A stretch of DNA of 29,441 nt from a virus: the IMG/VR virus record IMGVR_UViG_3300003873_000045, positions 1 to 29,441 of that record; one strand, written 5' to 3'. Shown here one piece after another: positions 534-16,571 of this stretch. The notes beneath the pieces are model-generated. The model was given only the letters and a program-made list of their open reading frames with translations, was not told the origin of the DNA and did not search any database. Made by a program: the position numbers and the translations under genes. Within the stretch, counting starts at the first letter, position 1; each line of letters starts with the position of its first letter.

Positions 534-535
534 GA

Positions 536-1572: not shown

Positions 1573-2099
1573 AAGTATTATGTGAGGGATGTACTCCCAC
1601 AAAAGGCTCTGAATATAGTGCAGGGATTGACTTATATGCCTCTGAAGATGTTGTTATAATGGCTGGAGAGACTGCTGTTGTTGGTCTGGGGGTTTGTATT
1701 GATTTGGAAAAATCTTTTATAAAGTTACAAAAAATCGTTAATAAAACATTTTTTAATGAAAGGACACAAAGATTTAAAGAAACTCACTATTTAGAACTAC
1801 ATCCAAGAAGTAGCCTAAGAGCAAAAGGGTTTATCTCAAATACAGGCATAATCGACATTGATTATAAAGATGAAATTAAAATTATTATACATAATCCAAT
1901 TATTAGGGTGCTAGATAGCTTTGATTTAGTTGGTGTAGAGTGCGATAAAGAGAATAGTTTTATTGACGGTTCTTATGAATATACAATCAATAAAGGGGAT
2001 AAAATAGCACAAATACTTTTAAAAGAACACCAAGGCTTTTTAATGGGCGTTAAAAGCAATGAAGAGCGTGTCGGTGGATTTGGTAGCACTGGAGAGTAG
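1566..2099 (+). CDS. dut: dUTPase (deoxyuridine triphosphatase)
   Basis: Hydrolyses dUTP to dUMP and pyrophosphate, keeping uracil out of phage DNA and supplying dUMP for dTTP synthesis. The five motifs of trimeric dUTPases are visible: motif 1 AGIDLYA (residues 19-25), motif 2 PRSSLRAKG (about 79-87), motif 3 NTGIIDIDYKDEI with the catalytic Asp, motif 4 GDKIAQILL, and motif 5 RVGGFGSTG at the C-terminus. At 177 residues it is longer than the usual 140-155, with extra segments at about residues 50-72 (between motifs 1 and 2) and 115-140 (between motifs 3 and 4). AAGGA precedes the ATG. It is the only clear nucleotide-metabolism gene in the window. Confidence 0.93.
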   Translation: MLKVLCEGCTPTKGSEYSAGIDLYASEDVVIMAGETAVVGLGVCIDLEKSFIKLQKIVNKTFFNERTQRFKETHYLELHPRSSLRAKGFISNTGIIDIDYKDEIKIIIHNPIIRVLDSFDLVGVECDKENSFIDGSYEYTINKGDKIAQILLKEHQGFLMGVKSNEERVGGFGSTGE

Positions 2100-2108
2100 A
2101 TATTTCGC

Positions 2109-2114
2109 TATAAT
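2109..2114 (+). promoter_or_regulatory. candidate -10 box upstream of the first micro membrane-protein pair
   Basis: TATAAT lies 27 bases before the ATG at 2141, in the short gap after dUTPase. No good -35 box is present, which is normal for Campylobacterota sigma70 promoters. A GAGAGG ribosome site follows. It would let the genes at 2141-2687 be expressed separately from the early operon. Confidence 0.4.
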
Positions 2115-2140
2115 CACACTATAAAAAAAGAGAGGAAAAT

Positions 2141-2169
2141 ATGGCAGAAGATGAAAACATAGTCAAAAA
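2141..2169 (+). repeat. 29-bp direct repeat, copy 1 (5' end of membrane-protein gene)
   Basis: These 29 bases, starting with the ATG, are identical to 2451-2479. They encode MAEDENIVK plus one base pair into the next codon region. The match begins at the start codon, and the two genes are unrelated beyond it. Confidence 0.9.
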
Positions 2170-2359
2170 TGAGGGCTTAAAAGAAGTTGGCAAAGGCTTT
2201 ATAGCATTGGCAAATCTTGTTTTTGTTATTTTCTTACTCAATAATTACCTACAAAAAGATAATTTTAGTATGCTAGGTGTGCTTTTATCTATCTATGGTA
2301 TCATAATGCTATATGTTACAGGCTATACAGCCATCAACAAAGGAGATGCGAAATGCTAG
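2141..2359 (+). CDS. small protein with two membrane segments (first copy of micro-gene pair)
   Basis: The 72-residue product has a charged N-terminus, a first hydrophobic stretch at about 19-37 (ALANLVFVIFLLNNYL), a short loop and a second at about 43-65 (MLGVLLSIYGIIMLYVTGY), ending in NKGDAKC. It probably sits in the inner membrane. GAGAGGAAAAT precedes the start. It overlaps a 28-codon gene for a one-span peptide. A similar two-gene arrangement occurs at 2871-3128. Its first 29 bases (MAEDENIVK) are identical to the start of the HTH gene at 2451. Role unknown: superinfection exclusion, a toxin-like function or a small holin-like protein are possible. Confidence 0.65.
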   Translation: MAEDENIVKNEGLKEVGKGFIALANLVFVIFLLNNYLQKDNFSMLGVLLSIYGIIMLYVTGYTAINKGDAKC

Positions 2360-2439
2360 AATTTGGAATAATCGTTGCAGTAGTAGCAACAATAGCTTAT
2401 TTTGTAGTGAAAAAAATACCTAATGTAAAGACTCATTAA
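2353..2439 (+). CDS. 28-residue single-span membrane peptide
   Basis: The product is a hydrophobic helix (FGIIVAVVATIAYFVV, residues 4-19) followed by a basic tail ending VKTH. It overlaps the end of the 72-residue gene by 7 bases and has its own AAGGAG ribosome site 7 bases upstream, good evidence that it is translated. The layout (two-span protein followed by a tiny one-span peptide ending in -TH) is matched by the genes at 2871 and 3030. Function unknown. Small hydrophobic peptides like this can act as type I toxins or as partners of larger membrane proteins. Confidence 0.6.
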   Translation: MLEFGIIVAVVATIAYFVVKKIPNVKTH

Positions 2440-2450
2440 AAGGAAAGAGT

Positions 2451-2479
2451 ATGGCAGAAGATGAAAACATAGTCAAAAA
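2451..2479 (+). repeat. 29-bp direct repeat, copy 2 (5' end of HTH gene)
   Basis: Identical to 2141-2169, again starting at the ATG. The upstream ribosome-site regions are similar but not identical (AGAGGAAAAT versus AGGAAAGAGT). Confidence 0.9.
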
Positions 2480-2687
2480 GACTTGTAAAGAGTTGGGGAT
2501 TACGCAGAAGGAGTTGGCTGAGAGGTTGGGGGTTAATGATGGGACTGTTAGACAATGGTCATCTCAAACTAAACCACCAGAATGGGCTATAAAATTTATG
2601 AATGTTCTTATTGAAAATAAATTGCTAAATGAACGAGTAACTAAATTCTCAACAGCTCTTAATATGCTTGATGAAGCAAGGGTGTGA
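2451..2687 (+). CDS. Cro/C1-type HTH DNA-binding protein
   Basis: A 78-residue transcription regulator with a helix-turn-helix at about residues 12-40 (LGITQKELAERLGVNDGTVRQW), typical of XRE/Cro-type proteins. The helix after it may support dimerisation. The first nine residues (MAEDENIVK) are copied from, or shared with, the membrane-protein gene at 2141 and look like an addition to a normal HTH start. The operator-like dyads at 2705-2817 lie directly downstream, and the protein is a natural candidate to bind them. A hairpin overlaps its stop codon. Whether it acts as repressor or Cro cannot be told from sequence. Confidence 0.75.
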   Translation: MAEDENIVKKTCKELGITQKELAERLGVNDGTVRQWSSQTKPPEWAIKFMNVLIENKLLNERVTKFSTALNMLDEARV

Positions 2688-2704
2688 CATTTTGTCATAC
2701 CCTT
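2678..2704 (+). terminator. hairpin overlapping the HTH gene stop, possible terminator
   Basis: A 12-bp stem (AAGGGTGTGACA paired with TGTCATACCCTT, one G-T pair) closes on a three-base TTT loop, with the TGA stop inside the left arm. Only about three T follow, so it would be a weak intrinsic terminator. It could also serve as a 3' stabiliser. It separates the HTH gene from the promoter region. Confidence 0.5.
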
Positions 2705-2721
2705 TGTTAATAAGATTAACA
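2705..2721. promoter_or_regulatory. operator-like dyad O1
   Basis: A perfect inverted repeat TGTTAAT-AAG-ATTAACA (7-3-7). The same 7-3-7 geometry recurs at 2801-2817 and imperfectly at 2769-2785, as expected for a dimeric HTH repressor binding several sites. Confidence 0.6.
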
Positions 2722-2760
2722 CTTATAACTTGAAAATGTAAATAAAATTAACTTTTACTA

Positions 2761-2789
2761 TTGACTTGTGTTAATTTAATTGATATAAT
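2761..2789 (+). promoter_or_regulatory. strong sigma70-type promoter
   Basis: TTGACT (-35, 2761-2766), a 17-base spacer and TATAAT (-10, 2784-2789), the closest match to the consensus seen in the window. Transcription would start near 2796 and read into 2871-3816. An operator-like dyad overlaps the spacer and -10 box, with others on each side, so it is probably repressed by the Cro-like protein at 2451 or a repressor outside the window. Confidence 0.75.
2769..2785. promoter_or_regulatory. operator-like dyad O2 inside the promoter
   Basis: TGTTAAT-TTA-ATTGATA. The left half is identical to O1 and the right half matches 5 of 7 positions. It covers the spacer and the start of the -10 box, so occupancy would block RNA polymerase. 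Confidence 0.45.
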
Positions 2790-2800
2790 TCTCTCACATT

Positions 2801-2817
2801 TGTTATTAACAATAACA
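2801..2817. promoter_or_regulatory. operator-like dyad O3
   Basis: A perfect inverted repeat TGTTATT-AAC-AATAACA with the same 7-3-7 spacing as O1, just downstream of the expected transcription start. Confidence 0.55.
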
Positions 2818-2829
2818 TTGTTCTTTAAA

Positions 2830-2849
2830 ACAGAGAGATTTAAAAGTTA
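2830..2849. repeat. left arm of a long-range inverted repeat
   Basis: ACAGAGAGATTTAAAAGTTA is the reverse complement of 3126-3146 except for one extra A in the right arm. It lies in the expected 5' untranslated region of the transcript from the 2761-2789 promoter. Similarity continues outward for a few more bases (TCTTT). Confidence 0.85.
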
Positions 2850-2870
2850 AAAGTGTGCTATACTTTGATT

Positions 2871-3029
2871 ATGAAAAAAACCAGAAAGATTGTAGAGAAT
2901 GTCGCATTAGGACTTTTTGTAAATGGTAGTTTTGCAATAAGCCAAGATGGGCTTACAACAAAATCTTTGATTATCACCAGCGTTTCTTTATATGCTATGA
3001 TAATTACTGTAATTTATGAGGAGGATTAA
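2871..3029 (+). CDS. 52-residue protein with two hydrophobic segments (second copy of micro-gene pair)
   Basis: The product has a basic N-terminus (MKKTRK), a first weakly hydrophobic segment (VALGLFVNGSFAI, about 11-23) and a second clear membrane segment (about 32-49), ending in YEED. It resembles the 72-residue gene at 2141 in layout though not closely in sequence. There is no Shine-Dalgarno sequence before its ATG, unlike nearly all other genes here, so its own translation may be weak or conditional. Its last codons form the GAGGAGG ribosome site of the next gene, which is two-fold evidence for coupling. It is enclosed by the inverted repeat 2830-2849/3126-3146. Function unknown. Confidence 0.5.
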   Translation: MKKTRKIVENVALGLFVNGSFAISQDGLTTKSLIITSVSLYAMIITVIYEED

Positions 3030-3128
3030 ATGGATGGTCAAGACATCATACTAGCACTAACTATTTTAGTAGCCATTGTAGCAACTGCACTTGCATTTGT
3101 AAAACCAAAAGAGAAACACACTCACTAA
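3030..3128 (+). CDS. 32-residue single-span membrane peptide
   Basis: The ATG directly follows the stop of the 52-residue gene and has a strong GAGGAGG ribosome site 5 bases upstream. The product is one hydrophobic helix (residues 6-24, ILALTILVAIVATALAFV) and a basic tail PKEKHTH, parallel to the 28-residue peptide at 2353. The right arm of the inverted repeat begins at its stop codon. Size and hydrophobicity fit type I toxin-like or accessory membrane peptides, but no named family is recognised. Confidence 0.6.
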   Translation: MDGQDIILALTILVAIVATALAFVKPKEKHTH

Positions 3129-3146
3129 CTTTTAATATCTCTCTGT
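3126..3146. repeat. right arm of the long-range inverted repeat
   Basis: The reverse complement reads ACAGAGAGAT-A-TTAAAAGTTA, matching 2830-2849 with one inserted base. It starts at the stop codon of the 32-residue gene and ends 28 bases before the antirepressor start. Confidence 0.85.
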
Positions 3147-3174
3147 AAAAGATTATTATTTTATGGAGAGAATT

Positions 3175-3816
3175 ATGCAACTTATCACATTCAACGATGT
3201 AGAGCTTCATCTACAAGAACATTCACAATATGAGTTTTTATTATCAAACAAAGAGGTCGCTTTAGGGTATGGTATAACTGAAAATGCAATCATTAAACAT
3301 TTAAAAAGACGCTCCGACGAACTCATAGAAGGCAAACACTGGCTACGCTTAGAAGTCCAAACAAAAGGTGGCAAACAAAAAGTTATCCACTGGACCAAAA
3401 AAGGAATAGTGCGTTTAGGCTTCTTCATCAAAAGTGAAAATGCTAAAAAGTTTCGTGATTGGGCTGAGGACTACATAGTAAATAAAAAAGCAACCCAAAC
3501 GCAACACAACCCATACATCTACCAACTAGAACGAGAGAACACAGAACTACGCCGTGCTATAAATCGCCTATCTCTCAAACCAACATACAATGAAGAGCTT
3601 AAAAAGCTACAAGACGACAACAAAGCCCTAAAACGCACCCTCATAGACTTCTCAAATAGATACCACACTATCGTGCTAGAAGCTGAGGACAAAGTACAAG
3701 CCATAAAAAGCGAACTCACAAAAATGACGAACTGTTTCCAACTATTGCCAAACTTAGCAAATGATGGAAAGAACCTAAATACAGATACAATGGCTAAACA
3801 TAGTCATTGGAATTAA
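3175..3816 (+). CDS. phage antirepressor-like / Bro-N-like regulator
   Basis: A 213-residue protein. The N-terminal part (about 15-105) has an HTH-like segment (LSNKEVALGYGITENAIIKH) followed by a WTKKGIVRLGFFIKS...AKKFRDWAEDY block, as in the N-terminal DNA-binding domains of phage antirepressors and Rha/Bro-N-type regulators. Residues about 115-185 are a Glu/Lys/Leu coiled coil. The start is placed at 3175 because GGAGAG lies 4 bases upstream; an ATG at 3163 lacks a ribosome site. Its last 30 codons are duplicated at 4253-4342. It follows the operator/promoter region and probably acts in the lysis-lysogeny decision. Confidence 0.7.
   Translation: MQLITFNDVELHLQEHSQYEFLLSNKEVALGYGITENAIIKHLKRRSDELIEGKHWLRLEVQTKGGKQKVIHWTKKGIVRLGFFIKSENAKKFRDWAEDYIVNKKATQTQHNPYIYQLERENTELRRAINRLSLKPTYNEELKKLQDDNKALKRTLIDFSNRYHTIVLEAEDKVQAIKSELTKMTNCFQLLPNLANDGKNLNTDTMAKHSHWN
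3721..3810 (+). repeat. 90-bp direct repeat, copy 1 (3' end of antirepressor gene)
   Basis: It matches 4253-4342 at 85 of 90 positions. In the reading frame, four of the five differences are synonymous and one changes Asp to Glu, so both copies appear to have been kept as coding sequence. Confidence 0.9.
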
Positions 3817-3830
3817 AAAGGAAATAAGAA

Positions 3831-4259
3831 ATGATTTTACCAGTAAAAGTAGGATTATTAGAAGGTATGGAGATAGCTCCCGTTGGAAATGATAAGAAAA
3901 AATATACATTAATAAAATCAAATAAAGACGGAAAAATGTATGCTCTTCATAAAACACATATTATCAAACTTGATGATTTGGGTGTAGATACATTAGATAA
4001 TGAATGGATATGTGTTAATTTATCACATTTACAAAGCATATTAAAATGTATAGAATTTGAAAATGGAAAAATTGTTTCATTTGATGAATTCGATATTTAT
4101 AAATTATCTGAAAGTTTAGATGATGAATTTACTGAAATTGCTATGAAAATAATAGAGATGTCGAGGGAAGACTACAAAATTAAAAACGGTTTTACTTACG
4201 AGATTAATTGTAGAGATATTATTGCTCAAGAGTATGAAAAACAAGAGAAACAAAAATGA
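3831..4259 (+). CDS. hypothetical protein nested between duplicated ends
   Basis: A 142-residue soluble protein with a beta-rich N-terminal half (about 1-75, GNDKKKYTLIKSNKDGKMYALH) and an acidic helical C-terminal half ending EKQEKQK. AAGGA precedes the ATG at 3831. It sits exactly between the two copies of the 90-bp repeat, so it looks like a moron-type insertion, or the survivor of a recombination event that removed most of a second antirepressor gene. No family recognised. Confidence 0.6.
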   Translation: MILPVKVGLLEGMEIAPVGNDKKKYTLIKSNKDGKMYALHKTHIIKLDDLGVDTLDNEWICVNLSHLQSILKCIEFENGKIVSFDEFDIYKLSESLDDEFTEIAMKIIEMSREDYKIKNGFTYEINCRDIIAQEYEKQEKQK

Positions 4260-4342
4260 CAAACTGTTTCCAACTCTTGCCAAACTTAGCAAATGATGGA
4301 AAGAACTTAAACACAGAGACAATGGCTAAACATAGTCATTGG
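4253..4342 (+). repeat. 90-bp direct repeat, copy 2
   Basis: Second copy of the antirepressor tail, here detached from any antirepressor body. It begins at the end of the nested gene, so the repeat ATG overlaps that gene's stop. Confidence 0.9.
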
Positions 4343-4345
4343 TAA
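4256..4345 (+). CDS. 29-residue peptide equal to the antirepressor C-terminus
   Basis: The ORF starts at an ATG overlapping the previous stop (ATGA) and encodes MTNCFQLLPNLANDGKNLNT followed by ETMAKHSHW, identical to the antirepressor tail except for one Asp-to-Glu change. It may be a free-standing peptide, for example a competitor of the tail's binding partner, or a non-functional remnant. The mostly synonymous divergence favours expression, weakly, because only five sites differ. Confidence 0.4.
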   Translation: MTNCFQLLPNLANDGKNLNTETMAKHSHW

Positions 4346-4367
4346 AAATCACATAAAAGGAAAAAAG

Positions 4368-4646
4368 ATGCAATTAGAAGCTTTCAATAATTTAGAACTC
4401 ATTCCTAAGCTTATGCAACATATAGAAAGTCTTGAAAATAAACTCATGAGGATAGAGCAAGTAATAGCCCCTCCCCTCACCACAAAAAAAGGAGTTGCAA
4501 GCTATTTTGATGTAGGACCAAGAACCATAAATAACTACATAACAAAAGGATATTTAATAGAGGGTACACATTTCCATAGAAAAAATGGTAAACTTTTGTT
4601 TGTGGAAGATGCTATTTTGAATTTTGATAAAAGGATAATAGCGTGA
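4368..4646 (+). CDS. excisionase-like / HTH_17-type DNA-binding protein
   Basis: A 92-residue protein with an N-terminal helix (about 5-35) and a winged-helix segment (about 38-85: TTKKGVASYFDVGPRTINNY, then a strand-rich GKLLFVEDAI) like the MerR-type HTH_17 domain of excisionases. AAGGA precedes the start. It overlaps the integrase start by 4 bases, the usual xis-int arrangement, so it probably directs prophage excision. A plain transcription factor is the alternative. Confidence 0.65.
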   Translation: MQLEAFNNLELIPKLMQHIESLENKLMRIEQVIAPPLTTKKGVASYFDVGPRTINNYITKGYLIEGTHFHRKNGKLLFVEDAILNFDKRIIA

Positions 4647-5707
4647 AAAAGTTGCGTTTTAAAAATAGAAATGGTGTTCTATATTATGGATTTGGAGATA
4701 GTTTAAAATCTTCTCGAATGAAAGATACTAAAATAAATAGAAATATTTTGATAGGAAAATTCAATCGAGGAGAGCTATTTGAAGATAAAATGACATCAAG
4801 TAAAACAATTATCGAACTTGTAGAAGATGTGATAAGTGATAAAAGTAAGCACTTGAAGCATAAAAGTATGATAGCCTATAAATCATCTTTTAATAACCAT
4901 ATTATACCATTTTTCAAAGACAAATATGTATCTTTGATTAAGCCAATGGATATAAAGATATTTCAAGATGAGATGGTAGCAAAAGGTTTAAAAAAACAGA
5001 GCATTAATTTTGCAAGGATACTGCTAAAAGAAGCATTTGAAATGGCTGTTTTGAATGAGATTATAAATCATAATCCAGTAGAAGCTGTAAGTATGCCAAA
5101 GATAAACTATACAAAAAAGAAACCGAAACCTTTTACACTTGATGAGATTGATAAGATTTTAGAGTGTGCAGAGGGTGAATATAAAAACTTTTTAGGTATA
5201 TCTTTTTTTACTGGTATGAGAAGTGGTGAGCTACTTGCTTTAAGATGGGATGATGTAAATTTTGAGACAAGTACAATCACTATCAATAAAACAGTAGCTC
5301 AAGGTGTAATCAATTCAGCCAAAACAAAATCAAGCGAAAGAGACATCGAAATGATAGACAAAGCAAAAGAGTTCTTTCAAAATCAAAGATTTTTAACTGG
5401 ATTAAACAATACCTATATTTTTTTAAATGCAAAAGGAACTCACTACAGTTCCAATGATACTTTCTTTAGAAAATATCAAGCCGTTCTAAAAAAATTAGGA
5501 ATTGAAAAACGAGCCTTGCATAACACAAGACATACATTTGCAAGTATGATGCTAAATAATGGAATTAAACCTCTCTGGGTATCACATACTTTAGGTCATA
5601 ATAATTTGCAAATAACGCTAAGTGTATATACTCATTTTATGCCTAAAAAAGAAAAAATTGAAATAGAATTTTTAGATAATAGGTACAAAAATGGTACACA
5701 CAGCTAA
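4643..5707 (+). CDS. int: tyrosine recombinase, phage integrase
   Basis: Catalyses site-specific integration and excision. The 354-residue protein has the usual order: N-terminal arm-binding part (about 1-50), SAM-like core-binding domain (about 55-145) and catalytic domain (about 165-345). The catalytic set is complete: Arg193 (TGMRSGE), Lys229 (AKTKSS), His293 and Arg296 (HNTRH), His319 (LGH) and the nucleophile Tyr329 (SVYTHF). It starts at GTG 4643, overlapping the excisionase stop. The 3' end faces the likely attP region at 5708-5875, as in lambda. Confidence 0.95.
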   Translation: MKKLRFKNRNGVLYYGFGDSLKSSRMKDTKINRNILIGKFNRGELFEDKMTSSKTIIELVEDVISDKSKHLKHKSMIAYKSSFNNHIIPFFKDKYVSLIKPMDIKIFQDEMVAKGLKKQSINFARILLKEAFEMAVLNEIINHNPVEAVSMPKINYTKKKPKPFTLDEIDKILECAEGEYKNFLGISFFTGMRSGELLALRWDDVNFETSTITINKTVAQGVINSAKTKSSERDIEMIDKAKEFFQNQRFLTGLNNTYIFLNAKGTHYSSNDTFFRKYQAVLKKLGIEKRALHNTRHTFASMMLNNGIKPLWVSHTLGHNNLQITLSVYTHFMPKKEKIEIEFLDNRYKNGTHS

Positions 5708-5875
5708 CAAATACCGATAAATAAGGCTTAGAGCTTTAATTTATGTTTAAGTACAAGTAAAGTTTTGCAATTTATTTGCAAGAAATATATATTAAATAGC
5801 ACTTCCACACACTACCTTTCAACCTATACATTGAAAAACCATTGAAAAAAAACGGGTCAAAAACGGTACAAAATT
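5708..5875. other. convergent intergenic region, candidate attP with phased repeats
   Basis: This 168-bp gap lies between the 3' ends of the integrase and the endolysin and has no ORF. It contains paired repeats spaced 11 bp apart: TTTGCAA at 5764-5770 and 5775-5781; CATTGAAAAA at 5829-5838 and 5840-5849; and AAACGGGTCA/AAACGGTACA-like units at 5850-5859 and 5861-5870. Repeats phased to one helical turn next to the int 3' end are what arm-type integrase sites look like. The core cannot be placed without an attL or attR. Confidence 0.5.
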
Positions 5876-6283
5876 TTAAACCCTAAACAAAACCATCTCA
5901 TCCTCATTTCTACAATCTAAATGCACCCAACTCACACCAAGCTCCATTCCTTTCACATATTTAAACACATTTTTATTTTCTGTAATAAAATTTCTAACCT
6001 CTTCTGCATTATAATCACTAAATACAATATCAAACGCATTAGCGTATGAGTGCTGTGAACCATAACTGTAATTCGGGCTATCAGGTGTCCTTATTCCACT
6101 CCACTCTCTATTTCCACCCCAAAAATAATTATTAATTGTCATAGTTCCAAGATTGAAATGCTCTTTGAGTATATCAATAGTTTCAATCAATCTCACATCA
6201 ACATAACGCCAAGATTTATCTCCATATTTCCTATACATTTTTTTCGGTACTAATTCGTGAATTTTAAAATATTTACTTTGCAT
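5876..6283 (-). CDS. M15-type peptidase, probable endolysin
   Basis: A 135-residue single-domain zinc peptidase of the M15 type, which cleaves peptide cross-links in peptidoglycan. The zinc ligands are visible as His78 and Asp85 (SQHSYANAFDI) and His121 (WVHLDCRN); a Glu at 114 may be catalytic. There is no signal peptide, so release through a holin fits. AAGGA precedes the ATG. It is the last gene of the leftward late operon, in the same cluster as holin-like and spanin genes. Confidence 0.8.
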   Translation of the reverse strand: MQSKYFKIHELVPKKMYRKYGDKSWRYVDVRLIETIDILKEHFNLGTMTINNYFWGGNREWSGIRTPDSPNYSYGSQHSYANAFDIVFSDYNAEEVRNFITENKNVFKYVKGMELGVSWVHLDCRNEDEMVLFRV

Positions 6284-6311
6284 TTGTTTTATTCCTTTGT
6301 CTTATTTTTAT

Positions 6312-6884
6312 TTATTTAGTAATCTTAGGTTTATATTCTAAGTTCATAAGTTTATTAGTGTCTTTCATATCTCTACCAAGCATTGACAGAGTTTTAATAT
6401 CTGTTGCATTAAGCTTACTTATAGAATCAACTATATAAGTCCCGAATGTAACACTATAGCCTATCATTACAACTACAACCCCCTTAATAAGAGTAGGAGA
6501 CATATCTTTAGCTCTGCTCGAGTCTATATTTTCAATCTTAATTCTATGCTCTTCAGTAACTCCAACAAGTCTTAGTGTATCTTTAGTAAGAGCTTGAACA
6601 TCTTTAGTGAGCAATCTAACACTATTACATCCACTGTCACTTGCTTGTATAGCTTCTACTGAATTAATACGATTATGTACTCTTTTATTGTTTTCACTGA
6701 AAGTCTCGTCTCTGCGTTTAAAACTTTCAGTGAGTTCTTTATCAAGTAAGTCAATTCTATTATTTACTAAATCTTGACTGCTAAGTTTTTGTGCTACATT
6801 ACCAAGTTCTTTTGTTAGTTCGTGTTGTGAAGTAACTAAACTATTTATACTCATAATTATATTTTCAATAGGTACATTATCCAT
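6312..6884 (-). CDS. coiled-coil protein with one membrane segment, lysis cluster
   Basis: A 190-residue protein. Residues about 1-125 are predicted long helices with coiled-coil character. A hydrophobic segment (LIKGVVVVMIGYSVTFGTYI, about 131-152) is followed by a short polar tail ending in KPKITK. The ATG at 6884 has GAGGGG 7 bases upstream and is preferred over a TTG two codons earlier. It overlaps the upstream 59-codon gene. Tail-anchored coiled-coil proteins of this kind occur beside holins and spanins; it could be a holin partner, but no family is certain. Confidence 0.6.
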   Translation of the reverse strand: MDNVPIENIIMSINSLVTSQHELTKELGNVAQKLSSQDLVNNRIDLLDKELTESFKRRDETFSENNKRVHNRINSVEAIQASDSGCNSVRLLTKDVQALTKDTLRLVGVTEEHRIKIENIDSSRAKDMSPTLIKGVVVVMIGYSVTFGTYIVDSISKLNATDIKTLSMLGRDMKDTNKLMNLEYKPKITK

Positions 6885-7056
6885 TTGCAAACCCCTCGTT
6901 GTATTGTTTTATTTCCTCATTTAGATATGCAATAGCTTTGTCTTTTTCCTTACAAGCTTCTTTGAGTTCTGTATAGTTCTTAATTAGCTTATTAAACTGT
7001 TTTAAAGGCAATATAACATTATCCCCTTGAGCTTGTACCTTTAATTTATTTTGCAC
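6877..7056 (-). CDS. 59-residue helical protein in the lysis cluster
   Basis: The GTG start at 7056 overlaps the o-spanin end by 11 bases, with AAGGTGG 6 bases upstream; the stop overlaps the next ATG by 8 bases. This chained overlap fills what would otherwise be a 160-bp gap. The product has a short N-terminal segment (MQNKLKVQAQGDNVILPLKQ) and an amphipathic helix (YTELKEACKEKDKAIAYLNE). No membrane segment and no family recognised. Confidence 0.6.
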   Translation of the reverse strand: MQNKLKVQAQGDNVILPLKQFNKLIKNYTELKEACKEKDKAIAYLNEEIKQYNEGFANG

Positions 7057-7255
7057 CTTTAACCACCTTGTATTGAATTTGTAATGGGGTCATAATAGTT
7101 TTATTAACATCATAAGTTTGTAATCTAGGACATTTAGCTTTTACATACTCTGTTCTAACTATAATCTTAGGTTTATCACAACACGCATTAAATAGTGAGC
7201 TTATAAACACCAGCACTATTACGAATGTCATCTTTTTTATACTGTTTGACTTCAC
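7046..7255 (-). CDS. Rz1-like outer-membrane spanin subunit (lipoprotein)
   Basis: A 69-residue protein with a basic start, a hydrophobic signal (MTFVIVLVFISSLF) and a Cys at the cleavage point (FNAC), followed by a short tail with RTEYVKAKCPRL. The lipobox is imperfect, with Phe instead of Leu at -3. Its 5' part overlaps the i-spanin 3' end in another frame by 68 bases, the classic Rz/Rz1 arrangement. As an outer-membrane lipoprotein it would bind the i-spanin across the periplasm and fuse the membranes in the last lysis step. The GTG at 7255 is the chosen start; an ATG at 7231 is the alternative. Confidence 0.75.
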   Translation of the reverse strand: MKSNSIKKMTFVIVLVFISSLFNACCDKPKIIVRTEYVKAKCPRLQTYDVNKTIMTPLQIQYKVVKGAK

Positions 7256-7493
7256 CCTTTAAATCCTTTTTCTTTTGTTTCTGAACTTCTTCAAATAACT
7301 TATTTTTATTTGTCGTGTTCATATCTTGAATTACTGTTCGTAAGTTATTTGATTTAACTTTTTGAACTACTAATTTATCTTTTAGTTTATTGACTTTTTG
7401 ATGTTGCTCATACATAGTGTATTTGAAATATCCATATCCACTTACTATCAATGTAGCTAACACACCAAAAAATAATAATCTTATACTAAACAT
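7188..7493 (-). CDS. Rz-like inner-membrane spanin subunit
   Basis: A 101-residue protein with an N-terminal membrane anchor (LLFFGVLATLIVSGYGYF, about 6-23) and a charged periplasmic coiled coil (about 30-85), the standard i-spanin layout. AGGA precedes the ATG. The gene follows the holin directly and its 3' end contains the start of the o-spanin gene. The identification rests on topology, the overlap and the lysis context, since spanins are too diverse for sequence motifs. Confidence 0.75.
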   Translation of the reverse strand: MFSIRLLFFGVLATLIVSGYGYFKYTMYEQHQKVNKLKDKLVVQKVKSNNLRTVIQDMNTTNKNKLFEEVQKQKKKDLKGEVKQYKKDDIRNSAGVYKLTI

Positions 7494-7494
7494 A

Positions 7495-7701
7495 TCAATC
7501 CTTTGTAGGAGCTGTACTCCAATTTGTCTTAGCCATATAAGCTAACGCACCTAATATAGATGTATAGATAGCACCTATTCCTATATCACCCATTCCTTTT
7601 ACCTCTGCTATAAACTGAGGCTGTAGGATAAACCAAGCAAGATAGCCTAAATATCCAATAACTAAGTATCTTGCTATTAACTTTATATCAGCTCTATTCA
7701 C
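7495..7701 (-). CDS. probable holin, two membrane segments
   Basis: With the GTG start at 7701 the product is 68 residues: a short N-terminus, a first membrane segment (YLVIGYLGYLAWFIL, about 12-26), a loop with VKGMGDIG and a second segment (AIYTSILGALAYMA, about 44-57). AGGAG lies 5 bases before this GTG, whereas the upstream TTG at 7731 has no ribosome site and would overlap the previous gene by 38 bases. Small size, two spans and its place before the spanins argue for the pore-forming holin that releases the endolysin. Confidence 0.65.
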   Translation of the reverse strand: MNRADIKLIARYLVIGYLGYLAWFILQPQFIAEVKGMGDIGIGAIYTSILGALAYMAKTNWSTAPTKD

Positions 7702-7948
7702 CCCTACTCCTGTAACAGTGGTTATGTTCAAACTTTCTAAGTATCTTACATAGCCAAGGTAATTTACCTGTTCTACCTATATAGCTACTTATAGTTTCAT
7801 CTTGCGAGCCATTAAGAAACAATACATTACCCATTTGGTCTAATACAAGTAACAATCTATACCATCTTCTACGCTTTTTCATATCCCTATCAAACTTAGC
7901 ATATAAGTTTGATAGTTCTTTCTTTTCTACTGTTCTAGGCATACTCAT
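7694..7948 (-). CDS. conserved small protein of phage lysis clusters
   Basis: An 84-residue basic protein with the block WYRLLLVLDQMGNVLFLNGS followed by DETISSYIGRTGK and a C-terminal HC pair. Proteins with a LDQ..N..F..G..DETISS core are frequent beside holin genes in phages of Gram-negative bacteria, and I recall no proven function. GAAGGAG lies just before the start; the second ATG at 7942 would also fit. The gene overlaps the holin start by 8 bases. Confidence 0.6.
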   Translation of the reverse strand: MSMPRTVEKKELSNLYAKFDRDMKKRRRWYRLLLVLDQMGNVLFLNGSQDETISSYIGRTGKLPWLCKILRKFEHNHCYRSRGE

Positions 7949-7971
7949 CTACTCCTTCGATATTTGCTATA

Positions 7972-8511
7972 CTATAATCCAATCTCACTAAGCATCTCTT
8001 TCTCAAATGCTCGTTTTTTAGCAAGTGCTTCAGCAGCAAATGCAATAAACGCATCTTTTTTTGCAATGACTGCATTTGCAAAGTCATCAAGAGAACTTCC
8101 ATCTGCATCTGCTAACACTTTCAAAAATGGTGCATCGTCTGCATCTGAGCTATCAAGATACTTTAATGCCTCGTTATATTGAATGGTCCATGTCTCACGC
8201 TCTACGAGTGGATAAGCTTCAATAACAGTTCGCATATCTTTCTCAAGAGACTCTTTTACGACCTCTCTAATTCTGTTAAGTTGTGCTGTATCCTGCACCA
8301 ATGCTTTAAACTCATCTTGTTCTATAGCAGTACAGTTAATAACATCTTCTTGACTTGCAATAAGTGCATCAATGTCATCTTCTACATCAGCCCCAACACT
8401 TACAACATTAACCCCAGTAAAATTATTTACTTTTACTTTATCATCACCCCCACGAAACTCATGAGTTGTGAACTTATCTTCTACTTTGTTAAATTTTACA
8501 TACTTGAACAT
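7972..8511 (-). CDS. tail-fibre-assembly-like protein
   Basis: A 179-residue acidic protein. The C-terminal half (about 100-175) has the pattern ERETWTIQYNEALKYL, APFLKVLADA, then an Ala-rich helix with repeated Lys, as in DUF4376-type and tail-fibre assembly proteins found next to receptor-binding genes. It probably helps fold or attach the tail fibre. AGGA precedes the ATG. It lies two genes downstream of the receptor-binding protein. Confidence 0.6.
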   Translation of the reverse strand: MFKYVKFNKVEDKFTTHEFRGGDDKVKVNNFTGVNVVSVGADVEDDIDALIASQEDVINCTAIEQDEFKALVQDTAQLNRIREVVKESLEKDMRTVIEAYPLVERETWTIQYNEALKYLDSSDADDAPFLKVLADADGSSLDDFANAVIAKKDAFIAFAAEALAKKRAFEKEMLSEIGL

Positions 8512-8609
8512 TTATTATCCTTTTCTATGCTGTTGAGAAGTTTCATCATCTCAACAAACTTTCTATTTAAACTTATTTCGCCACCACTAACTTTTTCGTG
8601 TGTACTCAT
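8496..8609 (-). CDS. 37-residue protein between receptor-binding and fibre-assembly genes
   Basis: The ORF begins at the ATG at 8609, 22 bases after the receptor-binding gene stop, and overlaps the next gene start by 16 bases. The product is MSTHEKVSGGEISLNRKFVE continuing as an amphipathic helix (MMKLLNSIEKDNK). The ribosome site (GTGAGCGG) is only fair. It sits just where a DGR would place its homing signal and accessory sequences, but the protein itself does not look like Avd. No family recognised. Confidence 0.4.
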   Translation of the reverse strand: MSTHEKVSGGEISLNRKFVEMMKLLNSIEKDNKCSSM

Positions 8610-8630
8610 ACCGCTCACTATCGTTCACTC

Positions 8631-8762
8631 TTACAGAGTAACAGAGGCAAAACCCGCCACATCGTCGCCCGAGTGAGACGAATCATTGTAGAGACTGGAG
8701 CAGAAAACACCAGCATAACCAGAGCTGCCCCAACTCCCACCGACAATCACGACCGCACCGTG
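8631..8762 (-). other. candidate DGR variable region at the 3' end of the receptor-binding gene
   Basis: The last 43 codons differ from the rest of the gene. In 8641-8760 I count 68 G+C of 120 bases (57 percent), against 21 of 60 (35 percent) in 8761-8820. Many codons end in C (GGC, AGC, TTC, TGC, TCC, CTC, TAC, CAC, GAC), unlike the A/T-ending codons elsewhere. Replacement of the A residues in AAC codons of a template produces exactly NNC codons. The conserved frame GGSW...AGVF...GF is kept. Confidence 0.55.
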
Positions 8763-10154
8763 TCTTAAATATCTATAAACACCATCATTACCAAAGCTAG
8801 TAGTTCCTGAGCCACTTACACCAGCACTAGTTGGAATACCTACACTTGCTTTTTTGTAATCAAGTGAGTTTGTATCTGTTGAAAAGTTTAGTACAGTTTC
8901 AGAGCCATTTCCTAAATAAGTCCATCCTGCATTACTTCCAACAATTCCAGTTAGATTTAACATATCGTAGAGACTTGCATCTAAAAGATTATCGCTTGTT
9001 AAGTCATTTGGATTTACACCTGCTTTTAGGATTCTAAAATATCTTGCAGAGTAAACCCCATCTGTATCAGCTATATCTCTCTCCAAATCATTATCTACTG
9101 TTACAGTATTGCCATCTTTTACATCTGTTACAGTGTAAGCTGCTGTATTGTAAGTAGAACCGCTATGAGGAGACCCACCAAAATAAATAACATCATCAAC
9201 TGCTAATCCGTGACTTGTAATCGTTACATCTTTTTGTCCACTGCTAGATGCCGTTCCAGTTACTTTTGCTAGGTATGTAAGCCCTGTAACAATCTTCCAC
9301 ATATTACCGTTCATATCTGCAACACCTGAGTTTTGTCCATTATGTGTAGTCTTTGCAAAGTTTGAACCACTTCCTGTTAATGCACAGTTTGAGTATCCAC
9401 TACCTGTAAAAGTTACACTTGTATCATTCACATCGTGAAGGGCACTTACTAGACAACCTTTTGGAAAGTAAGGTGCTACATCATTAAACGCACATAAAGC
9501 AGTTGAAGCACCACTTTGACTTTGAGCAAGTGCTATAAGTTGCAGTGCATTCCACTCAAATATTGTCGTTGTTTTATATCCCGCTGCATGACAAGCATCA
9601 ACAAAGCCTGCATAGTTATTCGCTGGAGCAGATACAAGACTTCCAATAGGATTATGAGAGCTACTTGTACTTACTGGGTCAAGATACTGCTGAGAAGTAA
9701 GCTTACCCCCTACATTTCCTGCCAAATACTTGAAGTGCAAAAAACCATTTGGTGCATCATAAAACGCACGAGGCTTTGCAAAACCACTTGTTGAAGTTGA
9801 AGATATTGAGATAACATTCCCAACCATCTTATAGTAAAAAGGTGCTATATACTCAAACACACTCCCAACTACATCAACAACACATCCGTAGTTTGGGTTC
9901 ATAACATCATCATGACCACTCATTTTTGTGTAACCTGCTGGCAACAACTCATCTTTTAATGCTGCAACACCAAAACCTGCTGTTCCAGGTACTCCAATGT
10001 TGTATGCTGTATCTTCAGGAAGAATATCAAAACTCATTGTGTATAGCTTCTCTAAAGATGAACCTGCATACGCTACCTTTTCTAAATCTGTCTCAGTTTT
10101 AGATACTTCTTCTAATCTCTGGATTATTGTATCTCTTGCACTCTTCATTCCCAT
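8631..10154 (-). CDS. receptor-binding tail protein with C-type-lectin fold (DGR-target-like)
   Basis: A 507-residue tail-tip protein. Residues about 1-120 are a tail-attachment part. A C-type-lectin fold of the formylglycine-generating-enzyme type follows, with the EW motif (FEWNALQLI, 199-207) and DMNGNMW (280-286). Residues about 297-360 form an FCCH-like beta insertion (SHGLAVDDVIYFGG, YTVTDVKDGNTV). The C-terminus (465-507) has VGGSWGSSGYAGVF and a closing GF, like the variable end of diversity-generating-retroelement target proteins. AGGAG precedes the ATG. The protein most likely contacts the host receptor. No reverse transcriptase or template repeat is in the window. Confidence 0.75.
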   Translation of the reverse strand: MGMKSARDTIIQRLEEVSKTETDLEKVAYAGSSLEKLYTMSFDILPEDTAYNIGVPGTAGFGVAALKDELLPAGYTKMSGHDDVMNPNYGCVVDVVGSVFEYIAPFYYKMVGNVISISSTSTSGFAKPRAFYDAPNGFLHFKYLAGNVGGKLTSQQYLDPVSTSSSHNPIGSLVSAPANNYAGFVDACHAAGYKTTTIFEWNALQLIALAQSQSGASTALCAFNDVAPYFPKGCLVSALHDVNDTSVTFTGSGYSNCALTGSGSNFAKTTHNGQNSGVADMNGNMWKIVTGLTYLAKVTGTASSSGQKDVTITSHGLAVDDVIYFGGSPHSGSTYNTAAYTVTDVKDGNTVTVDNDLERDIADTDGVYSARYFRILKAGVNPNDLTSDNLLDASLYDMLNLTGIVGSNAGWTYLGNGSETVLNFSTDTNSLDYKKASVGIPTSAGVSGSGTTSFGNDGVYRYLRHGAVVIVGGSWGSSGYAGVFCSSLYNDSSHSGDDVAGFASVTL

Positions 10155-10200
10155 TACTTACTCCTATTTAATTTAGTTTGTAGTTTAATGACATCGCTAG

Positions 10201-10617
10201 TCATAGACTTATTCCAAAATCTTTTGCTTTTAACACTCTTGCATTTTTGTCAATTTTTGCTGTATATTCGCCTATTTGTGACTCTATCGCTGTTGCTATT
10301 GCACCACTAATATTATTGTTAATCCCCTCTACAGTATTTTTATAATCTTCTGTAGTATCTCTAAAAGCCTTTGCCTCATTAGCACTTGTAAAAGCATTTG
10401 TAGCACTATTACTTGCATTTTTTTCTGCTGTTTGTGTAGCTGTTTTACTTGTTTCTACATCATTCGCAGTGCTATTTATCCCTGCAATACTCGCATTTAT
10501 TGATTTTATTACATCAACAATCTTCCCCCACACATAAGAAGCATTAGCTCTAAAATCAGCACTACCCTCTACTGGTATCTTTGCCTCATCAAAATTCGTT
10601 ACTGTTGGTATTGACAT
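10201..10617 (-). CDS. tail fibre / coiled-coil tail protein
   Basis: A 138-residue protein with an N-terminal part (about 1-40, PVEGSADFRANASYVWGKIV) and a long Ala/Ser/Thr/Asn-rich coiled coil (about 40-110), as in short phage tail fibres that trimerise. It lies between the receptor-binding gene and the distal tail gene and probably links the receptor-binding protein to the tail tip. AGGAG precedes the start. Exact role not shown by motifs. Confidence 0.6.
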   Translation of the reverse strand: MSIPTVTNFDEAKIPVEGSADFRANASYVWGKIVDVIKSINASIAGINSTANDVETSKTATQTAEKNASNSATNAFTSANEAKAFRDTTEDYKNTVEGINNNISGAIATAIESQIGEYTAKIDKNARVLKAKDFGISL

Positions 10618-10636
10618 TATCTCTCTCCTTTTCTCA

Positions 10637-11581
10637 TTATAAATACCCCTCTACTTGGAGTTGGTATGTAGTCTTAGCTACACTTATCGGCATATCATGG
10701 TCTTTCAACTCTCCATAAATGAGCAACGCTTTATATCCACCATCTCTCTCATCTCCAACAAATATTGCAGGAGTATCTGCTAAGTCGTTTAGTCTGTTTT
10801 GGATGATGTCAATAGCAAAACTATCTATAATACATGAGATAGACATTCTTTTATATCTTGCCTTTCTTCTTGTGATTATATTTCCAAATCTATCTCGTGA
10901 CTTTGATGTAACACCTCTCATACTTGAAGTAGGGTTTGGTTCAATCAGTGTCAATCCAAAGTTTTTACTTCTACCATACGCTATATGCCCTACTGCTACG
11001 ACATTATCAGGATTGTTAATATAAACTTCAAGTGTTGCATCATAAACAAGAGGTAAAAGCACAAAGAAACTTCGTCTATACTCAGTAGGTGCATAAGTCC
11101 AATCTTGCCAATCATAAACATCCCTAAAAGCAATATCAAAAGTCTTATCAAATACAACAGTAGAGTCATCATCATTCTTTGTAACAATTACTCGTATTGT
11201 CTTTACATTTTCTATAGCGTCTATCATCAAAACATCACTGTCGGAAATACCAAATTTGTAGTAAATCTCGTCACTATTAGAACATTTGCTACTCCCAAGC
11301 TCATCAAAAGCTCTCATGTAGTTTGTAGCCCCTCTATCAAACCAATATGTACCTATACCTGTTACAGGATTCACATCATTCTCTGGTTTAGCTAATGCAT
11401 TATCATCCCCTTTTGGAACTGCTTGAATTGCCTCGTATTTTCTATAATAAGGGGCTTTTACTTGCACCAAATCCCCTGTTGTATAATCATCTTTAGAACT
11501 ATCATAGACAGCTATCCCAGCCTCTTCCTCATCTATGTTAGAATCTAATATGTTTGCTTTAGTTCGTGGAGCTATTATCAT
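10637..11581 (-). CDS. distal tail / tail-tip protein
   Basis: A 314-residue beta-rich protein encoded directly after the tape measure gene, overlapping it by 4 bases. The N-terminus (IAPRTKANILDSNIDEEEAG) and a C-terminal ALLIYGELKDHDMPISVAKT block fit tail-tip structural proteins. Its middle (about 160-230) looks like a beta sandwich. Position after the tape measure is where distal tail and hub proteins are found in siphoviruses. The family assignment is by context. Confidence 0.6.
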   Translation of the reverse strand: MIIAPRTKANILDSNIDEEEAGIAVYDSSKDDYTTGDLVQVKAPYYRKYEAIQAVPKGDDNALAKPENDVNPVTGIGTYWFDRGATNYMRAFDELGSSKCSNSDEIYYKFGISDSDVLMIDAIENVKTIRVIVTKNDDDSTVVFDKTFDIAFRDVYDWQDWTYAPTEYRRSFFVLLPLVYDATLEVYINNPDNVVAVGHIAYGRSKNFGLTLIEPNPTSSMRGVTSKSRDRFGNIITRRKARYKRMSISCIIDSFAIDIIQNRLNDLADTPAIFVGDERDGGYKALLIYGELKDHDMPISVAKTTYQLQVEGYL

Positions 11582-14500
11582 ACTATTCTCCTTGTCGTAT
11601 TCACTGCTATTTCATCGAGCAATGCACTCTGTTCAAGAGATTCTTTCTTAAGCTCTCGTATCTCATTTGCTTGTTTCTCTGTTAATATAATAAGTTTCTT
11701 AAGCTCAACAACTACATCATCTTGGTTATTGCTAACACTAATTCTAGTAGCGTTAGAAGTAAATCCACCAGTAGCAAATGTTTTACTATTTCTAGCTTCT
11801 TCAAGAGCGTTAAAGAGTTCAGGGCGTTTGTGTAGCATCCATCTAGGGGTTACACACTCATCTTCATGTACTATCCCTGCTCTTTTAAAGCCTGTAGAGT
11901 CTGATTTTGTATCTGTTAATTTTGGCGATAATATGCTTGCATTTATAGCATCTAGTTTTACGCCTAGTGAACCTAATAATAAGTTACTTGTGTCTAACTT
12001 AGTAGTAAGGCTGTTTTCAATTTTCTTTAAGTAATCTACCTTGGTGATTGCAGAGTCTTTCATAGCTTTAAATTGTCTAGCAGCTACAATCTGTGCATAC
12101 TTTTGGTCTTTAGAAGTTTTAAAATTACTAGAATCAAAAAGTGTACTAGAATAAGAAATAGTTTTTTTCAAACTATCTTGATAAGCTTTATAATCTTTTG
12201 TTTTTGAAAGATTTAATGTACTGCTCATTGAATCATAATAATTTTGTAAAGCGAACTTTGAACCGTTTGCTGATACTTCTAGCTTTAGTATATTACTTGT
12301 TAAAGAGTCAATAATAGAGTTTAGGATTGATGTATTTGCTTTTGCTTGTTTTATAACATCATCATTGGCTTTCTTTGTGTCCTCTAATAAGTTTATATAC
12401 CTCTGTCTAGCTTTATCTTCTCGCCCCATCTTATCTAAAACTTTTTGCCTCTGATAAATCTCATAGTCTCTAGCATTATGAGTAAGCTTATATATTTTAT
12501 CTAACTGTTTTACTTTATTGGTGTTATCGACTGTTACATGGATAAGTTCTTTATTTGCTAGTAGGAAGCTTTTCTCAGCATCCGTTAAACCACCAACACC
12601 ACCTTTGAGATTATCAAATAGAGCCATAAGCTGTGTTTGAGTTGTTGCAACATTTACACCTAACTTATTAGCTTGGTCTTGTACTAATTGGTCTTGTGTT
12701 TTGAATGAGTCTTTGAACTCTTTCATATTTGCATTTGACTTAGATGTTGCTTCTGCTACTGCTAAAATTGCATCTTTATTATCCATAATAGTAACAGCAC
12801 TAACACCATAAGCATTTGACAAGTCATTTTCAAGCTTAACTTTTTCAGCAAGCTTTGTAGGGTCTTCTGAATTAAGTAAAGCTATATTATCTTTAGTAAG
12901 ATTGTTCGTAATCTTATCTAATACATCTATAGATGACTTTAAATATTCATGTAGGCTTTGAGAGCCTTTTAAGTCATTAACAGTATTTGTATCTTTGCTT
13001 AGCTGTTTCTTCTGATAAAAGTTATTATAAAGAGCATCATACTTCTCTTTAAAATCTTTACCTGCATCTAGCACAGTCTTGTAAGAGTCTATAATAGACA
13101 TTGCAAAATCATGAGAAGTCTTTTCAGCTTTGTTTATGATGTTTTTGTACTCTCGATCTGTTACGCCAAAATTACCTAGGTCTCCATTTGCTTTAAGCTT
13201 ATTAAGGAAATCTATCTGATTTGATTGATTACTTAAGTATTTCTCATTTAAAGTTGCTTGCCAAGAGTCATTTCTGACATCACCATCAGAAGAACCATAA
13301 GAAGATGTAGGGGTGCTTAATGTAACATGCTCGGCATTTATTGCATTACCATAAAGTTTTTTTAGTCTTTCAAGTTTAGCATTGTTGCCGTCTATAGAAT
13401 AACCACCATTTTTAGCAAAATGTACTTTATTATTTGAGTCTGTAAAGTATTCTGCCATATCGTCTGTATCGCTTTGGTATGAGCCTATATGATACCCATT
13501 CATTTTTTTAGGGTATGCACCTAACCCATCATCAGTTCCTGGTGTAAGTGCATAAAAATCCTTACCAATCTTACCAAGACTATCAATAGCATCAGCCTTA
13601 GATTGAATAGAGTAAGTTTTACTTGCAGACTCCAACTGTTTAGCAACAGCACTACCACCATAACCACTAATCGCTTGGAGTAACTCTATCTGCCTATCAA
13701 GTCTATCTGTGATTGGCTTAGTGTTATCTAGGTAAGTTTCTGACTTTTGTTTATATACATCTGAACGAGACGGAGCAGATGCTCCACCAGAAGCTCCACC
13801 TGAGCCACCTAATTGAGACAACATTGCTATATTTGGAAGCATTGCTGCTGTTGTGGCAACCACGGCAGGAATATTAGCAGGGAATGGTGCAGAAGCCCAA
13901 GCACCTTGTATTGCTGTAATACCATTCACAATACCGAGTGTAGCTTGTATTGCTTGGAAAGCTTTTGCTTGTGCTGAACCTGCTTCATAAAAGCCAGACA
14001 TACTACCTGCTAAATCAGCATAACCTTTTATTTCTGCACTGGTTTTGCTTTCATTAAGAGCCTTCTGTTCTTTAGTGAATTTTGTAGACAAGGCTTTTTG
14101 CTTTATTAGCTTTTCACTAGCTGGTAATCTCTGTTTTTCTAATTTTAACCATGATTTTGCATAATCATTTTGTAATTTAATATCAGCCTTATTGTATTTT
14201 AACTTTCCTACATCAAGGTTTGTGAGTGATTTTGATATGTTTGCTATGTCTTTAGCTGTACCAGTTAAGCTGTTTCCCCAGTTCATTCCGCTTTGTGCTA
14301 ATGCTATTTGAGAATCAAGCATAGACTGCATTTGAGAATTAGCATCATCAAGCCCTTTTACAGTTAGGTCAATACTATAGTCTTGTTGCATTGTATCCAA
14401 TAAACCACGCAACTGTTTGTTTGTAAAAGCCCCACTCCCTGCAAGTTCTGCCATTTTATCGCTTGTATCTTTTAGCCACTTATCGTAGTCTGTTCCCATT

Positions 14501-15777
14501 ATTGATAGATAAAGGTCTTTGGCTTTTTGCTGGTAATTTAATAATGCTTTAGCTCTCCATACATCTAACTTATGAATTTGAACAATCTTACTTGATTCAT
14601 ATTTATAAGTTGTATTTACTAAATCTTTATATTTGCTATATTTTGCATTTATTTTGTCTTTTGCTGATGATTGTATGTTTAAAAGAGAATTTATCTGTTT
14701 TGCTAATGCACTCTCTTTTTTTAAGTCTTCTTCAACTTTATTTTTTTGTTTAAGCAGTTTATCTTGATGTTTAAGTGTTTCTTTTTTTAAATTTAGTACA
14801 TCAATTTCATACTGTATATATTTCTTTGCTTTTTTATTAGCTAATAGTGTATTTCCTAAAAGTCCTTTTGTTAAGATATTATCTCGTTCTCTAATTAATT
14901 GAATTAATTTCAAATTTAAATCATTGATATTATTAATATCCCCAACTTCTTTAAATTGCATTAGATAAGAGTGCCATTCATCTTTTAATGTCACTACATC
15001 TTTTGTAAAACTTTTTATATTATTCTTTGAAATATCAAAAATATCTTGAGTTAATAACCCTGCTAATTGAGTCCATGCAGTATCAAAATTCGATACTGCT
15101 ACAGTCATAGTATCAAGAACTTTTAATTGACCTAGTTTACTTTTTACCAAACCTACTACATCTTTAGTATTTTTCAAAGCTTTATTTGTCAAACCTAAAG
15201 AGTTTAAAAATCTACCTAAATCACTATTTGCCAACACTGTACCAGTTGCAAGTCCATCGACACCTGCTAAAAGTTGGTTAAACTCGACATTACCTGCGTT
15301 TGCAGCAACACTCAAAAGCTTTGTCATGTCTATCATGTCTTTTTCTGATGCACCTGCCTTTTTCATTGAGACATACATAGTTTTATAGATTTCTGTTGTT
15401 TGCTCTAATGAGTGTGGTGTTTGTGAGTTTATAGCAAGAAGGTCTTGTGCAGTCTTCACTGCCTCTTTTTGTGCTAAATTATACTTCTCTGCAATAGTTA
15501 AATGTTTACCCATTGCAGAAGTGTTTGATGATGTAGCTACTGTTAGAGCTGTAAGACCTGCTATTGAGTCTTCCATATTTTTGTTAAATGCCATACCAGT
15601 TCTCAATAGTTTTTCAACACCTGAGAAACCGGCATATGCAGAGGCAAGTGAGATAATAGCATTTTTCATATTATTGACACTTCTAGATACTGTCTTTTCA
15701 GCTTTTTCCATTCCACTGACAAGCTTTGCAGTATCAGCTTTTATATCGATAACAACACTTCCTGCTTTGTAACTCAT
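11578..15777 (-). CDS. tail tape measure protein
   Basis: The largest gene in the window (1399 residues). It sets tail length and is ejected during DNA entry. The N-terminus (VVIDIKADTAKLVSGMEKAE) is typical of tape measure proteins. Long helical, Lys/Asp/Asn-rich stretches follow, with a Gly/Ala-rich hydrophobic stretch at about 610-665 (GIVNGITAIQGAWASAPF, VVATTAAMLPNIAML) that could insert into the membrane. The start overlaps the chaperone extension stop as ATGA. If the usual helical rise of about 1.5 angstrom per residue applies, the tail would be roughly 200 nm, an estimate only. Confidence 0.92.
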   Translation of the reverse strand: MSYKAGSVVIDIKADTAKLVSGMEKAEKTVSRSVNNMKNAIISLASAYAGFSGVEKLLRTGMAFNKNMEDSIAGLTALTVATSSNTSAMGKHLTIAEKYNLAQKEAVKTAQDLLAINSQTPHSLEQTTEIYKTMYVSMKKAGASEKDMIDMTKLLSVAANAGNVEFNQLLAGVDGLATGTVLANSDLGRFLNSLGLTNKALKNTKDVVGLVKSKLGQLKVLDTMTVAVSNFDTAWTQLAGLLTQDIFDISKNNIKSFTKDVVTLKDEWHSYLMQFKEVGDINNINDLNLKLIQLIRERDNILTKGLLGNTLLANKKAKKYIQYEIDVLNLKKETLKHQDKLLKQKNKVEEDLKKESALAKQINSLLNIQSSAKDKINAKYSKYKDLVNTTYKYESSKIVQIHKLDVWRAKALLNYQQKAKDLYLSIMGTDYDKWLKDTSDKMAELAGSGAFTNKQLRGLLDTMQQDYSIDLTVKGLDDANSQMQSMLDSQIALAQSGMNWGNSLTGTAKDIANISKSLTNLDVGKLKYNKADIKLQNDYAKSWLKLEKQRLPASEKLIKQKALSTKFTKEQKALNESKTSAEIKGYADLAGSMSGFYEAGSAQAKAFQAIQATLGIVNGITAIQGAWASAPFPANIPAVVATTAAMLPNIAMLSQLGGSGGASGGASAPSRSDVYKQKSETYLDNTKPITDRLDRQIELLQAISGYGGSAVAKQLESASKTYSIQSKADAIDSLGKIGKDFYALTPGTDDGLGAYPKKMNGYHIGSYQSDTDDMAEYFTDSNNKVHFAKNGGYSIDGNNAKLERLKKLYGNAINAEHVTLSTPTSSYGSSDGDVRNDSWQATLNEKYLSNQSNQIDFLNKLKANGDLGNFGVTDREYKNIINKAEKTSHDFAMSIIDSYKTVLDAGKDFKEKYDALYNNFYQKKQLSKDTNTVNDLKGSQSLHEYLKSSIDVLDKITNNLTKDNIALLNSEDPTKLAEKVKLENDLSNAYGVSAVTIMDNKDAILAVAEATSKSNANMKEFKDSFKTQDQLVQDQANKLGVNVATTQTQLMALFDNLKGGVGGLTDAEKSFLLANKELIHVTVDNTNKVKQLDKIYKLTHNARDYEIYQRQKVLDKMGREDKARQRYINLLEDTKKANDDVIKQAKANTSILNSIIDSLTSNILKLEVSANGSKFALQNYYDSMSSTLNLSKTKDYKAYQDSLKKTISYSSTLFDSSNFKTSKDQKYAQIVAARQFKAMKDSAITKVDYLKKIENSLTTKLDTSNLLLGSLGVKLDAINASILSPKLTDTKSDSTGFKRAGIVHEDECVTPRWMLHKRPELFNALEEARNSKTFATGGFTSNATRISVSNNQDDVVVELKKLIILTEKQANEIRELKKESLEQSALLDEIAVNTTRRIV

Positions 15778-16570: not shown

Positions 16571-16571
16571 A

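Follow-up and report, generated by a model that had tools for sequence, protein, structure and literature searches.

A phage DGR target gene that retains its variable end and has very probably lost its mutagenic cassette in a single deletion

In a diversity-generating retroelement (DGR), the RNA of a template repeat (TR) is copied with randomisation at adenines and the product replaces the variable region (VR) of a target gene, a mechanism that is well established. Target genes that seem to have outlived such a system have also been described. In isolates of Treponema denticola, DGR target genes occur without a reverse transcriptase (RT) or a TR, which their authors read as leftovers of DGR loss (PMC4891356). 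Likewise, the VP paralog all3226 of Anabaena retains remnant TR-VR homology with no RT nearby, and its authors suggest that the diversifying parts were removed after selection of a good variant (PMC7517822).

Here, we analysed a stretch of 29,441 nucleotides of viral DNA (positions 1 to 29,441 of IMG/VR record IMGVR_UViG_3300003873_000045), referred to as the window, and conclude with high confidence that the phage DGR target gene it holds retains its variable end but has lost its mutagenic cassette through one deletion of ~1.6 kb, so that the receptor would now be fixed unless a related DGR acts on it in trans. The target VRs of T. denticola resemble this locus in that most of their differences from the TR of a relative fall on adenines; however, those are bacterial genes, for which the accessible part of that report describes no deletion scar, whereas in the window a tail gene of a phage is accompanied by remnants of avd and RT at the two deletion ends. 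The Anabaena gene all3226 is also an orphan variable gene, but it is a dispersed paralog, while the target in the window remains at its original place, with the cassette excised beside it. With phage and prophage DGRs such as those of Bordetella BPP-1 and Thermus aquaticus TaqVP (order target-avd-TR-RT), the window shares a C-terminal VR, adenine-specific change, a post-VR hairpin with a GRNA loop and, putatively, a TaqVP-like target fold, but it is without TR, RT and most of avd. Since orphan VRs after DGR loss are already known, the new part is the mapped deletion scar in a phage; a literature search that covered few subscription journals found no published phage with both ends of a lost cassette preserved.

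The target gene and its VR are located as follows:
8631 to 10154, minus strand: DGR target gene, an ORF of 507 aa encoding a tail/receptor-type protein; relatives with an intact DGR are 72-82% identical.
8642 to 8761, minus strand: VR, placed by ungapped alignment to the TR of relative L004, with 12 of 25 template adenines changed.

The target gene is found downstream of a tape-measure gene (11578-15777) and ahead of holin/lysis-type genes, a position from which its product would be expected to be a distal tail or receptor-binding protein. Searches of Pfam, PHROGs and NCBIfam returned no function for this protein. An earlier annotation made from the letters of the window alone (the sequence-only reading) had described it as a C-type lectin of the formylglycine-generating-enzyme (FGE) type. 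Pfam gave no C-type-lectin match for the target protein, but the assignment gains ground from a profile of the target family, which matches TaqVP (5VF4; E=1.2e-7), the variable protein of a DGR, whose C-type-lectin fold is of the FGE subtype (PMC6328139). TaqVP was also the sole significant PDB match (Foldseek, E=4.4e-4) of a low-confidence model of the target from relative L032. Given that the two AlphaFold models are of low confidence (pLDDT 50.6 and 44.1; the PDB matches of the first were left unused), the tentative fold assignment is based on profile similarity.

The end of the target gene stands out in composition. G+C content reaches 56.7% (68/120) at 8641-8760, compared with 34.1% for the window overall, and ranks first among all 120-base stretches of the window. 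C-ending codons account for 33% of the last 43 codons of the target and for 9.3% of the remainder of the gene, where the maximum for any 43-codon stretch is 14%. The C-terminus carries the motif GGSWGSSGYAGVFCSSLYNDSSHSGDDVAGFASVTL*. Thus, the sequence-only reading was correct about the G+C jump, in both coordinates and numbers, about the richness in NNC codons, about the GGSW...AGVF...GF-type motif and about the absence of an RT and a template repeat from the window, in which we found neither PF00078 nor a TR-like second copy.

A protein search of viral contigs using the target as query identified five loci. One of them, L002 (contig G001), represents this phage itself, with 99.995% identity over window positions 1-19441 and one difference, at 5135. 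The target proteins of L003, L004, L005 and L006 are 72-82% identical to that of the window; L005 and L006 are nearly identical, so these four loci represent three distinct genomes. In all four, the VR is followed directly downstream by Avd, TR and RT, that is, by a complete DGR cassette, with the TR ~450-470 bases past the target stop and a PF00078 RT after the TR (contigs G002-G005). The order in L004 is VR gene, avd (9067-9489), TR, RT (9729-10781) and then a gene starting MFKYVKY. Its full-length Avd matches bAvd PF22296 (E=3.9e-17) and the PHROG 'Avd protein of DGR' (E=2.3e-21), and its RT corresponds to PHROG 1423 (E=1.4e-100).

Relatives of the target family were also found in Campylobacterales genomes by a genome search; a separate scan of genome contigs gave none. 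Several further family loci were noted. First, a Helicobacter ganmani prophage (L085, BK070120.1 9702-13308) has a complete DGR, comprising target, Avd, TR and RT, which is annotated as hypothetical proteins only. Second, L080 (minus strand, 8429-10623, genome G136) has target, VR, avd and TR, and its VR is changed at 13/23 adenines and 0/89 other bases with respect to its own TR; there is no PF00078 RT in genome G136, which may reflect another route of DGR loss or an incomplete genome. Third, the target ORFs of L081 (7325-9712) and L082 (6731-9355) in genome G316, of 795 and 874 aa, continue in frame through a template-like repeat into the RT. This repeat is un-mutated or half-mutated, and no avd or second repeat was found at either locus, making them candidates for recombination between VR and TR or for repeat collapse by the assembler. 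Finally, the target ORF of L037 (2063-4035) breaks within the VR and runs on into the RT, through either a deletion or an assembly join.

The TRs of the viral relatives were compared with the VR of the window. In the ungapped comparison with L004, 12/25 template adenines are changed versus 5/95 other bases (Fisher p=1.7e-6), and when the fixed difference at the 3' end described below is set aside, 11/24 adenines remain changed. The same bias is found against the TRs of L003 (adenines 12/24, others 8/95; p=1.5e-5) and L005 (adenines 14/26, others 18/83; p=0.0024). Indeed, changes cluster at template adenines in each of the 14 VR/TR pairs that could be measured, from 14 family loci in viral contigs and in Campylobacterales or related genomes. 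The five non-adenine positions that differ from L004 are explained by ordinary divergence of the TR, this lineage having lost its own exact template. Judged by its substitutions, the C-terminal region of the target is a true DGR variable region, once diversified at template adenines. The proposal of the sequence-only reading that this tail protein is or was diversified is borne out, as regards past diversification, by the L004 comparison and the family pairs.

Immediately downstream of the target, where the relatives carry the cassette, the window retains the following:
8532 to 8618, minus strand: avd remnant, first 29 codons (MSGMSTHEKVSGGEISLNRKFVEMMKLLN), from alignment with the avd of L004.
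8514 to 8532, minus strand: deletion junction, from alignments with L003 and L004; identical in G001.
8496 to 8513, minus strand: what is left of the RT 3' end, reading KCSSM* where relatives read QKCLSM*; it overlaps the beginning of the following gene.
7972 to 8511, minus strand: gene located after the RT in relatives whose DGR is intact, with the N-terminus MFKYVKF shared with L003 and L004.

Relative to L004, ~1.6 kb is absent (9154-10763 of that locus), and 18 bases at the junction could be assigned to neither side. Of the 140 codons of avd, 29 are left. Five of these carry differences from L004: four are silent and one alters the amino acid. The 5' end of avd is joined in frame to the 3' end of the RT, in an ORF of 40 codons (8499-8618, minus strand; stop at 8496-8498). 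The start codon of the following gene and its upstream AGGA survive the deletion, and this gene overlaps the RT tail as it does in relatives. According to these alignments, the missing RT and TR are deleted in place, with a deletion that ends within two DGR genes, and their absence is thereby explained without a host DGR. The scar at the cassette site does not support the explanation offered by the sequence-only reading, namely, that RT and TR lie in the few kb outside the window or that a host DGR acts in trans; the latter may still occur, but is not needed to account for the missing parts. Since the stub shows hardly any decay, the loss probably happened recently in relation to the divergence from L004.

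These data point with high confidence to the following course of events. The ancestor would have had the order VR, avd, TR and RT, as in the nearest relatives. While the cassette was present, RT together with Avd would have turned the TR RNA into cDNA randomised at the adenine positions, and this cDNA would have replaced the VR, altering up to about a dozen residues of the receptor surface. Later, as the scar shows, a single deletion of ~1.6 kb removed everything from avd codon 30 up to a point in the final codons of the RT, whereas the target gene was spared, as was the beginning of the gene that follows. From then on, the last VR variant would persist, and only ordinary mutation or recombination would alter the receptor, barring a DGR in trans. 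The apparent fixation of the receptor is inferred solely from the lack of the enzymes and the identity of the VR in two copies. A target tree constructed after removal of the VR places the window, L003 and L004 in a group with 100/100 support, enclosed by a larger group (100/98) in which all other loci carry a DGR; a single loss in the lineage of the window would be the simplest history.

Two sites that may relate to homing are retained in the window:
8640 to 8660 (approximate), minus strand: VR 3' end resembling an initiation-of-mutagenic-homing (IMH) site, with the VR-type GCC where family TRs have GAC.
8613 to 8628, minus strand: post-VR hairpin GTGAAC-GATA-GTGAGC (GTGAACGATAGTGAGC, coding sense) with a GRNA-type tetraloop, just past the target stop.

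The difference at the 3' end, GAC in the TR and GCC in the VR, is fixed in 14/14 measurable family pairs, with the window showing the VR form, and it looks like the IMH/IMH* of known DGRs. GC-rich hairpins with GRNA loops occur downstream of phage VRs and are required for homing, as reported by Guo et al. (PMC3240598). In this family, the hairpin, of the form GNGARC-GRYA-GYGANN, consists of a GRYA tetraloop, a closing C-G, a co-varying A-T or G-C, two G.A mismatches and an outer pair. It is present at the equivalent place in 12/16 family loci, the window included, a count that leans towards the element because the pattern fixes several of the scored letters. Across nine distinct sequences, the three pairs that were tested are retained throughout, with a covariation of 0.63 versus 0.29 after shuffling (1/500). 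A Watson-Crick stem occupies the same site in four further loci; it is long in L080, L083 and L084 and short in L025. The two adjacent G.A mismatches that the hairpin seems to have below the GRYA loop, in the window and 11 other family loci, are unlike the plain Watson-Crick stems described for other phage DGRs. With its hairpin intact, the VR of the window could still serve as an acceptor.

Because these cis sites survive, continued diversification of the VR in trans, with the DGR supplied either by a co-infecting relative or by the host, retains some probability, albeit a small one. Apart from the intact hairpin and IMH-like end, the VR has long exact stretches in common with the TRs of L003 and L004, among them a 22-base exact match to both at its 5' end, and the viral contigs include relatives with an active-looking DGR. 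However, the two copies compared, those of the window and G001, show no difference in the VR, and L003 and L004, which alone among the viral contigs carry the 22-base stretch, differ from the VR at 5-8 non-adenine sites, so neither of their TRs is the exact template. A related scenario would be that the loss of the cassette was selected after a good receptor variant had arisen, the VR being kept as an acceptor for the DGR of a related phage during co-infection. We consider this doubtful, but if true, diversification would be borrowed by the phage rather than carried.

It is even less probable that an RT and a TR are encoded in a part of this phage beyond the available sequence. The record is fragmentary, with neither end closed, and our coverage comprises the window plus the extension provided by G001, which reaches 6,693 bases past the left end of the window; the stretch leading from the window's right end to G001's left end lies outside it. 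No RT (PF00078) was detected in the window (G000) or in G001, including this left extension. The best score for a TR-like copy in the window and the 6.7-kb extension was 15.8, within the range of shuffled VRs (14.0-18.4), while true TRs used as controls scored 95.6, 87.6 and 47.2. Hence, the near-copy of the VR and the RT with an Avd neighbour that the sequence-only reading expected elsewhere in the phage or host were not found over this part of the phage. Moreover, the cassette directly follows the VR in every intact relative, and in the window this site is occupied by the avd and RT remnants.

An assembly artefact is equally improbable: these are metagenomic contigs, and DGR repeats can collapse during assembly, as may have happened in L081 and L082, but the junction, at which avd codon 29 meets the RT tail, is not placed between the VR and TR repeats, where a collapse would be expected, no repeat is seen at this site in relatives, the frame is maintained and the following gene keeps its start, and the same junction recurs in G001, a separate assembly record, possibly from shared reads. 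An ancestral DGR-free state, with later insertion in the relatives, is ruled out by the avd and RT remnants and the mutated VR, and a loss through VR-TR recombination is rejected given that both the VR and the beginning of avd are undamaged.

Deletion of the cassette would provide a dated and mapped case of a phage that drops targeted hypermutation and keeps the last receptor variant it produced. The near-identical cis sites and the intact sister phages raise the questions of whether DGR loss is selected once a receptor works, and whether an orphan receptor can be diversified across phages.

Elsewhere in the window, upstream of the integrase gene, a direct repeat of 114 bases (3718-3831 and 4250-4363, 87% identical) flanks the ORF at 3831-4259.
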